Assembly (NCBI GenBank): GCA_020629635.1 | Contig: JAHDCX010000002.1 | Span: forward strand, 221,726-285,725 | Direction: 5' to 3' | Length of the DNA: 64,000 bases | Source: Acidimicrobiales bacterium | GTDB lineage: Bacteria > Actinomycetota > Acidimicrobiia > Acidimicrobiales > SHLQ01 | In this document: positions 48,988-51,151 of the stretch, piece by piece | Layout of the letters: each line of letters opens with the position of its first letter | Position numbering within the stretch: the stretch's first letter is position 1 | The notes under the pieces: generated by a model | Told to the model about the DNA's origin: nothing | The model's input: only the letters and a program-made list of their open reading frames with translations | Databases searched by the model: none | Position numbers and translations under genes: made by a program

Positions 48988-49302
48988 ATGGCTGCATCAC
49001 AGAAGATCCGCATCCGCCTCAAGGCGTATGACCACACCCAGATCGATCAGGCAACCAAGCAGATCGTCGAGACGGTGCGTCGTACGCAGGCGGAGGTGCG
49101 GGGTCCGATCCCGCTTCCCACCGAGAAGCACCGCTACACGGTGGTTCGGGGTCCGTTCAAGGACAAGGATTCCCGCGAGCACTTCGAGATGCGCATCCAC
49201 AAGCGCCTCCTCGACATCGTCGAACCGTCGCCGAAGACCGTCGATTCGCTCCAGCGTCTCGACCTCGCGGCGGGCGTCGACATCGAGATCAAGATTCAGT
49301 GA
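48988..49302 (+). CDS. rpsJ: 30S ribosomal protein S10
   Basis: This 104-residue S10 has [25 protein letters not shown] and [10 protein letters not shown]. It starts 18 bases after tuf and appears co-transcribed. In most bacteria rpsJ opens the S10 operon and is followed by rplC; here a strong intrinsic terminator and unrelated genes follow. S10 also binds NusB in antitermination, so a separate control is conceivable. Confidence 0.98.
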
Positions 49303-49330
49303 TTCGCTGATCATTCGATCAATGGAATGG

Positions 49331-49355
49331 CCCGGGCGTCATGCCCGGGTCTTTC
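49331..49355 (+). terminator. Intrinsic terminator of the str operon
   Basis: CCCGGGC and GCCCGGG form a 7-bp stem around GTCAT, followed by TCTTTCCCGTTTTC. This is the expected end of the transcript rpsL-rpsG-fusA-tuf-rpsJ. Confidence 0.9.
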
Positions 49356-49438
49356 CCGTTTTCACGGCTCGTCCTGTTGCGAGCCGACCGTCGGGAATCG
49401 GAATGCGCTGGCAGTCGGGCGGGTTTACCCTCGACGTG

Positions 49439-49945
49439 ATGGGGACCCGAGTGGCGCTTCTGCTGGTGGCCATGCTCGCCGCTGCGTGTTCGAGCGCGCC
49501 CGGTCCGGAGCTGACGACGACGTCGATTGGCGGAGCGCCACCGTCGTCCACGGCGGTGGCGCTCCAACCAGAACCCCTACCGTCGGGTCGCGACGCCATC
49601 GCGGCAGCGGAGGGTTCGGCACACGTCCTCTGGTTCTGGGGCGCGCATTGAGGCACCTGTCGCGAAGAAGCCTCTGCGGTCGCATGGGTGACGAGACAGC
49701 CAACCGATGTGCCGATCATCGGCGTGCCGAATCCCGATGACGGTGACGACACCGATCGTCGGGAGTTCATCGAGGCGATGAGTACCCAGATCAGTCACGT
49801 GCTCGAGGACCCGGGCTCGGTCTGGGCGAACTATAAGGTCACCTCTCAGCCGACGATGGTCTTTGTGTCCGCCGACGGTTCTACCGAGGTGCACACTGGT
49901 GGGCTGGGCCCACAGGGCCTCCTGGAGCGGCTGAAAGCGCTCTGA
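49439..49945 (+). CDS. Thioredoxin-like lipoprotein, candidate selenoprotein (in-frame TGA)
   Basis: Read through one in-frame TGA (49649-49651, codon 71), this is a 168-residue lipoprotein. It has a signal peptide with lipobox LAAAC (about Cys19), a Thr/Ser-rich linker and a thioredoxin fold. The strand-and-loop LWFWGAH-U-GTCREEA takes the place of the usual LxFWAxWCxxC, so the TGA sits on the first active-site Cys and the second remains as Cys74. Further on, VTSQPTMVFV is the cis-Pro region. Frame and codon use continue unchanged to the stop at 49945. Alternative: a Cys codon mutated to TGA in a pseudogene. The start could also be GTG at 49436. Confidence 0.8.
49652..49690 (+). promoter_or_regulatory. 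Candidate bacterial SECIS hairpin
   Basis: Starting three bases after the TGA, 49654-49665 pairs with 49680-49690. The pairs are CACC/GGTG, two G-U wobbles (T58-G86, G59-T85), T-A, a bulged C61, then GCGA/TCGC. That gives 11 pairs and a 14-base apical loop ending in GG. Position and size fit bacterial selenocysteine-insertion elements, which lie within about 40 bases of the UGA. Folding was done by eye only. Confidence 0.55.
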
Positions 49946-49948
49946 GGG

Positions 49949-51151
49949 CTAGAGCTCGGGCCCGGGAGCGTCTGGCGTCTCGAGATCGTCGAGCTCGTGG
50001 ACCGGGAGCGTGTCGGGAACGACGGACGGCCGCGTTGGTTGGTCGTCAAGGCCCACCCGGGTGAGCGGGCCCTCCTCGATGGCGTAGCGCTCTCCTGTTG
50101 CGGAGATGATGCCGGTGGCGGTCGCCGCAGCGGGAAGGGCGAGGAGGGCACCGACAGGGCCGAGGACCGACGCTCCGACGAGTACCGAACCGAACGAGAC
50201 GGCCGGGTGGATTCGAAGCGTTCGAGAGTCAACGCGTGGTGCCAAGAGGTAGTTCTCGAACTGCTGATAGGCGGCCATGAACGCGAGCGCCCAGAGAGCC
50301 TTTGGCGGCGATTCCATCAAGGTCAGGATCACGGGCAGCGCACCGGCGATGTAGACGCCGACGACGGGGACGAACTGGCTAACGACGCCTACCCAGACGG
50401 CGAGAGCGAGCGGGAATGGGACGCCGATCAGCGAGAACGCAATCCAGGTGACGAGCGAGGAGATCGTGGCCAGAACCGTTCGCGACAGGATGTAGCCACC
50501 GGTCTTTTGAATGGCGAGATCCCACACACCGAGCACTCGTCGCTGACGTTCGGGCTTGAGTCTGGAGCAGATCGTGCGTCGCAGTTTGGGGCCGTCGGCG
50601 GTCAGGTAGAACGTGAACAGGGCGATCGTGAAGATCTGGAAGACGAGGCCGATCACGGTGGCGCCGATCCCGACCACGTTGTTGGCCAGGCCAGTGAGTT
50701 GCTGACCGAGGCCATCGTCGGAGAGGAACTGATCCCGAGCCCGGTCGAGCGCAATCGATTCGTCGACGTTGTCCTGCAGCCAGATCTCCAGATCGTCGAT
50801 CAGCGTCGGCGCGTCGTCGACGAAACCTGTCGTTTGCTCGGCGAGCACGCTGCCAACGAGGAAGCTGAAGCCACCGATCACGACGAGCGCAGCAAGGAAC
50901 ATCGCAAGCGTCCCGAGGCCCCGCGAGACCCCCTTTCGTTCGAGCCAGTTGACGGCGGGCTCCAACGCGAAGGAGAAGAAGAACGAGATGAGGACGGTGA
51001 CGAGAAACCCGGACAGGTCCTCGAAGAGTTGTTGGAGGATCCAGATGGCGATCAGCCCGAGCCAGAACAGGGCGATCGCCCGCGGGACCCAGCGCGGCAT
51101 ACGAGCGTCGTCGCGGGCGACGTCGGCGACGATCTCGGTGTGCTCGCTCAT
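49949..51151 (-). CDS. AI-2E family transporter
   Basis: This 400-residue membrane protein has the PF01594 layout: helices at the N-terminus (about 25-60), a long extracytoplasmic insertion with amphipathic helices (about 105-155), then six more helices with the conserved PFPLALAVWVGVVSQFVPVVGVYIAGALPVIL and YQQFENYLLAPRV segments. Members export autoinducer-2 or act as Na+/H+ antiporters. The C-terminal 50 residues are acidic and specific. It is convergent with the thioredoxin-like gene, with only three bases between the stops. Confidence 0.92.
   Translation of the reverse strand: MSEHTEIVADVARDDARMPRWVPRAIALFWLGLIAIWILQQLFEDLSGFLVTVLISFFFSFALEPAVNWLERKGVSRGLGTLAMFLAALVVIGGFSFLVGSVLAEQTTGFVDDAPTLIDDLEIWLQDNVDESIALDRARDQFLSDDGLGQQLTGLANNVVGIGATVIGLVFQIFTIALFTFYLTADGPKLRRTICSRLKPERQRRVLGVWDLAIQKTGGYILSRTVLATISSLVTWIAFSLIGVPFPLALAVWVGVVSQFVPVVGVYIAGALPVILTLMESPPKALWALAFMAAYQQFENYLLAPRVDSRTLRIHPAVSFGSVLVGASVLGPVGALLALPAAATATGIISATGERYAIEEGPLTRVGLDDQPTRPSVVPDTLPVHELDDLETPDAPGPEL

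Follow-up and report, generated by a model that had tools for sequence, protein, structure and literature searches.

A UGA codon at the active site of a thioredoxin-like gene from an Acidimicrobiales bacterium almost certainly encodes selenocysteine (Sec). The gene lies in a 64,000-nucleotide stretch of genomic DNA, here called the window, and its product is likely to be an extracytoplasmic UxxC disulfide-exchange lipoprotein. The locations of the gene, its functional elements, its neighbours and the related genes elsewhere in the host genome are collected in Table 1.

Table 1. Features of the Sec gene and its surroundings in the window, with Sec decoding genes and paralogues on other contigs (C) of the host genome.
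Feature	Location	Strand	Details
Putative Sec-containing DsbE/DsbF-like thioredoxin lipoprotein gene	49439..49945	+	168 aa with U71
Predicted signal sequence with lipobox LAAAC	49439..49489	+	Cys17 predicted to be lipidated, from sequence
UGA codon, probably read as Sec	49649..49651	+	U71 of U71-G-T-C74
Resolving Cys74 codon (TGT)	49658..49660	+
Putative SECIS upper stem-loop, GCCTCTGC-GGTC-GCATGGGT	49670..49689	+	+21 to +40
Pro138 of SQP	49850..49852	+	Predicted cis-Pro loop opposite the active site; role by homology
rpsJ (ribosomal protein S10)	48988..49302	+	Last gene of the str cluster; conserved neighbour on the upstream side, outside the mechanism
AI-2E family transporter	49949..51151	-	Conserved convergent neighbour, outside the mechanism
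SelA	C28:65767-66822		320 bits
SelB	C28:66882 onward		Directly after selA; 281 bits
tRNA-Sec	C28:34677-34768		Anticodon UCA
SelD	C13:133404-134318		363 bits; one in-frame TGA, SHGAGUGCK
Sec thioredoxin-like paralogues (L054, L055, L056, L142)	G000 C32:8172-8690, C31:426088-426555, C30:18444-18887, C15:331996-332484

A UGA codon at the redox position of a predicted lipoprotein gene

The reading frame opens with an ATG at 49439 and contains one internal TGA before its terminal TGA at 49943-49945. The product, MGTRVALLLVAMLAAAC...HVLWFWGAH-U-GTC...VTSQPTMVFV...LKAL, has 168 residues, with position 71 being either Sec or a stop. As proposed in the first-pass annotation, which was made from the sequence of the window, the internal TGA falls on the first Cys of the thioredoxin CxxC motif and the frame then stays open up to its terminal stop. 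The lipobox start described there is also present: Cys17 of the lipobox-like LAAAC follows a short hydrophobic stretch and is invariant in 12 aligned members, as is Q137 next to Pro138. Export of the Sec protein and its lipid anchoring at Cys17 are predicted by homology.

The gene is preceded by the str cluster (rpsL, rpsG, fusA, tuf, rpsJ), and the order of rpsJ, Sec gene and AI-2E transporter is conserved in the same-genus relatives L024, L052, L074 and L076. Within 48988-51151, the str cluster ends with rpsJ, and next come the Sec gene and the convergent transporter, so that the S10 operon stops after rpsJ, unlike in many bacteria. When the window was scanned for open frames in which a GGTC hairpin follows a TGA, two candidates came up besides the Sec gene (55663 on the plus strand and 53788 on the minus strand), and in neither does the translation around the TGA show a redox motif.

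Conservation of the codon and of Sec decoding

Homologues were identified by six-frame search in 223 of the 297 genomes of the order, and most of the best matches among those listed contain exactly one TGA. Individual reading of 114 loci gave 95 UxxC, 10 UxxU and nine CxxC genes; many of these loci were chosen for holding a TGA, so the 105:9 ratio of TGA to Cys genes does not represent a frequency. The TGA stands at the same aligned codon in all 105 homologous genes, which argues that its internal position is not due to chance. For example, a public contig from an uncultured Acidimicrobiales bacterium (L052, CAKZVC010000018.1) carries a TGA copy that is 63% identical. Downstream of the TGA, amino-acid identity to eight close homologues is 60-71%, and in the same comparison third codon positions differ about twice as frequently as first and second positions. 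This bias indicates that the downstream part is maintained as protein under purifying selection, in line with the earlier claim of an intact frame with continuing codon use. Relatives that are truncated or frameshifted after the TGA were also looked for, and the relatives were found to keep both frame and TGA.

These observations bear on two alternatives. If the gene were decaying, the TGA would be a nonsense mutation, which a lone TGA does resemble, and the downstream part would be a remnant; Cys versions do exist in some genomes. Decay is nevertheless highly improbable in view of the same TGA codon and intact frames in dozens of genera, the third-position bias and the conserved hairpin described below, and it was rejected because codon and frame are conserved across the order. 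Even less credible is a sequencing or assembly error that converted TGC or TGT to TGA. In its favour, the host genome is a multi-contig assembly, but the TGA tracks the presence of SelA, and the agreement of independent assemblies of many species, including that of L052, led to rejection of this explanation.

SelA was detected in 182 of the same 297 genomes. Among the matches listed, the TGA form is found in 83 of 93 SelA-positive genomes and in one of nine SelA-negative genomes (Fisher p = 1.6e-6, which is a guide only because the genomes share ancestry). SelA matches weaker than about 1e-20 were left out of this count, which is less selected than the set of 114 loci. The SelA-negative exception with a TGA form (L035, in G170) comes from a genome that is 83% complete, where the lack of a SelA match is probably explained by an absent contig, although loss of SelA in this lineage is also conceivable. 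Alignment with Cys homologues, which the first-pass annotation had suggested as a check, places the UGA opposite the Cys of WFWAPWCxxC in the SelA-negative relatives L036, L049, L069 and L070. An in-frame UGA aligned with the Cys of non-Sec homologues is one of the patterns by which bacterial selenoproteins are recognized.

The host genome (4.45 Mb in 37 contigs, 96.5% complete) also provides the machinery for Sec decoding. The search for selA, selB, selC and selD, likewise suggested at the outset, found all four genes in the same assembly as the window. Several weaker RF01852 matches were excluded as tRNA-Sec. At Rfam gathering scores the window itself has no SECIS match and one tRNA only, with tRNA-Sec located elsewhere in the genome. 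In the selD gene (L021 1501-2475, on G000 C13), a TGA occupies the catalytic position and is followed about 35 nt later by a GGTC in a hairpin-like stretch; a second selenoprotein, and a well-known one, thus shows signs of UGA being used for Sec in this genome.

A TGA inside a conserved frame might also arise if UGA were reassigned, for example to Trp, or were simply read through without Sec. This is very improbable, and was rejected, since TGA serves as the terminal stop of both the Sec gene and the upstream rpsJ, the codon aligns with Cys rather than Trp in SelA-negative relatives, and a complete Sec system accompanies the putative SECIS. The machinery, together with the conserved UGA and frame, supports the original preference for Sec over decay, from which we infer incorporation at this codon.

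A GGUC hairpin downstream of the UGA

The hairpin emerged once the genes were aligned at the TGA; 54-nt folds of single sequences varied. In the window gene its GGUC tetraloop occupies 49678-49681 (+29 to +32, counted from the U of the UGA). A GGTC at +29 is present in 97 of 105 TGA genes (87/95 UxxC and 10/10 UxxU) compared with one of nine Cys genes. Across 88 distinct segments, stem pairs occur in 78% of cells, as against 34-54% with a slid 3' side and a maximum of 69% over 1000 shuffles, and two-sided stem changes number 98 compared with 23-38 with the 3' side slid. Different inner stems (CTGC/GCAG, CCAC/GTGG, CTAC/GTAG, CGGC/GCCG and CCTC/GAGG) all enclose the same GGTC. Over the loop, the Val codon is GTC in 86 of 86 cases, against 39% in the rest of these genes, and for the Ala codon just before it GCG accounts for 50 of 51, against 25%; like those for the stem, these codon figures are descriptive and carry no probability, as the sequences are related and not independent. 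The distribution of the hairpin among TGA genes, its covarying stem and the frozen synonymous codons make it very likely that it is a SECIS element.

Published criteria for bacterial SECIS elements include an apical loop of 3-9 nt with a G in its first two positions, a spacing of 16-37 nt, an upper stem of 4-16 bp and a minimum free energy of at most -7.5 (PMC13188914). The window hairpin falls within these ranges for loop, spacing (26 nt from the UGA codon to the loop) and stem, where seven of eight positions pair and one C.U mismatch is present. The 20-26 nt tip folds at -6.9 to -7.4 kcal/mol and a 51-nt stretch that retains the hairpin at -17.7 kcal/mol, so the energy threshold is reached with the longer stretch only. 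In one close relative, L023, the loop reads CGTC instead. The SECIS of fdhF in E. coli, which is recognized by SelB, shares the apical GGUC loop with the window hairpin; its loop is closer to the UGA, that of the window gene being about 8 nt further out. As a separate observation, a Cys version in a SelA-negative genome (L070, in G044) retains GGTC at +29, which may be left over from an earlier SECIS.

In the mechanism proposed from what is known of Sec decoding, SelB and Sec-tRNA(UCA) would bind the GGUC hairpin (+21 to +40) and insert Sec at the UGA at 49649-49651. In the absence of selenium, the expected product would be a peptide of 70 amino acids without the thioredoxin domain. The full-length protein would be exported and lipid-anchored before acting on its substrates, with U71 attacking substrate disulfides and C74 resolving the mixed selenenyl-sulfide. 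The first-pass annotation arrived at a Sec reading that is well supported, but overlooked the downstream hairpin, the breadth of the family and the further Sec paralogues.

Fold, family and place among known selenoproteins

The closest solved structures by sequence are DsbF and DsbE of M. tuberculosis, and the same two proteins are the top PDB matches by Foldseek (1lu4, DsbE or MPT53; 3ios, DsbF). An AlphaFold2 model (pLDDT 84, with Cys modelled for Sec) predicts a thioredoxin fold with the redox motif where the active-site helix begins, helix 72-84 coming directly after residue 71. The two mycobacterial proteins, which are exported and of the thioredoxin fold, have Cys at the catalytic position in contrast to the probable Sec of the window protein. 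Both are reported to assist oxidative folding in vitro (PMC3853704). By analogy with them, the reaction is fairly likely to be thiol/selenol-disulfide exchange on exported proteins, which might serve either reduction or repair, or oxidative folding. The window protein did not pass the NCBIfam cut-offs for StoA, ResA or DsbE (best StoA, at 32.6 bits against a cut-off of 210); with no curated NCBIfam cut-off passed, it is classed as DsbE/DsbF-like only.

It is also conceivable, though rather unlikely, that this is a true selenoprotein with another redox reaction, such as peroxide or methionine-sulfoxide repair, an alternative that competes only with the assigned reaction and is compatible with Sec at position 71. 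It draws on the Pfam matches of the window protein, which are weak, below cut-off and confined to AhpC/TSA and thioredoxin, and on the structure matches to DsbE and DsbF, which do not specify the substrate. Disulfide exchange is favoured over it by the UxxC motif with its resolving Cys, by the conserved SQP loop, and by DsbE, DsbF, ResA and StoA being the nearest proteins in sequence and fold.

The host genome has five Sec copies, the window gene and four paralogues, as well as further Cys copies. Each paralogue has a TGA at the first redox position, and the one at C15:331996 has the loop CGTC instead of GGTC. TGA forms were also found outside the order, within the phylum, and the genes of a related family (f89) recovered by the phylum search have Cys in all cases. 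A sister form of the type WAPW-U-PF-U (L057-L066) has two TGAs in 10 of 10 genes read, from the relatives G258, G214, G277, G291, G113, G077, G235, G171, G027 and G145. These UxxU genes have a single GGTC hairpin, +29 from the first TGA and +20 from the second, and a QRTYV-like sequence stands in place of the SQPxxV loop, apparently with loss of the usual cis-Pro. A 144-row tree, which has few columns and many unresolved forks, places the UxxU rows together on a single supported branch (99/85). No more than 3-4 changes are required to account for the Sec and Cys labels on this tree, which suggests that Sec use changes rarely in the family.

Thioredoxin-like selenoproteins with UxxC and UxxU motifs are established kinds (PMC13188914, PMC9312934, PMC2398784). 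Those described include thiol-disulfide isomerase-like UxxC proteins (cd02966) and Prx-like thiol:disulfide oxidoreductases (PF00578, UxxC/UxxU) (PMC13188914, PMC9312934). Like the window protein, they are thioredoxin-like, sequence-predicted and have Sec at the first redox position. Compared by description, the window protein differs in belonging to a lipoprotein DsbE/DsbF-like branch with several copies per genome and a near-uniform GGUC SECIS, found in Acidimicrobiales and other Actinomycetota. Another relative in kind is the ResA-like WAxxUGC selenoprotein of NCBIfam (NF041054), which is likewise ResA-like with Sec near the motif Trp but has a UGC motif, not UxxC. This model gives weak matches to nine of 12 members, the best at E 4.4e-9, and none to the window protein at E <= 0.01.

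The first-pass annotation, which considered such a protein new for this kind of actinobacterium, missed that UxxC thioredoxin-like selenoproteins had already been described. The DsbE/DsbF-like actinobacterial branch and its expansion as UxxC lipoproteins in Acidimicrobiales were not described in the open literature searched, which is weak evidence as most subscription journals lie outside it. The groups that have been named as selenoprotein-rich are Deltaproteobacteria, Clostridia and Synergistetes, and Actinobacteria are not among them (PMC5029168).

On balance, we favour the view that Acidimicrobiales and related Actinomycetota have an expanded extracytoplasmic selenoprotein network, comprising several paralogous Sec DsbE/DsbF-like lipoproteins per genome (five in this one) and, in sister genomes, a UxxU form with an altered cis-Pro loop. 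If this is true, disulfide exchange by Sec on the cell surface would be standard in an actinobacterial group that is not counted as selenoprotein-rich in the literature searched, and Actinomycetota would have a wider range of selenoproteins than is currently known. Annotation that reads TGA only as a stop would truncate such genes, so a widespread family for selenium-dependent redox chemistry at the surface of environmental actinobacteria has probably been missed. With one enzyme occurring in Sec, Sec-Sec and Cys versions, together with the SECIS, the family would offer a natural series for understanding what Sec contributes to disulfide exchange.
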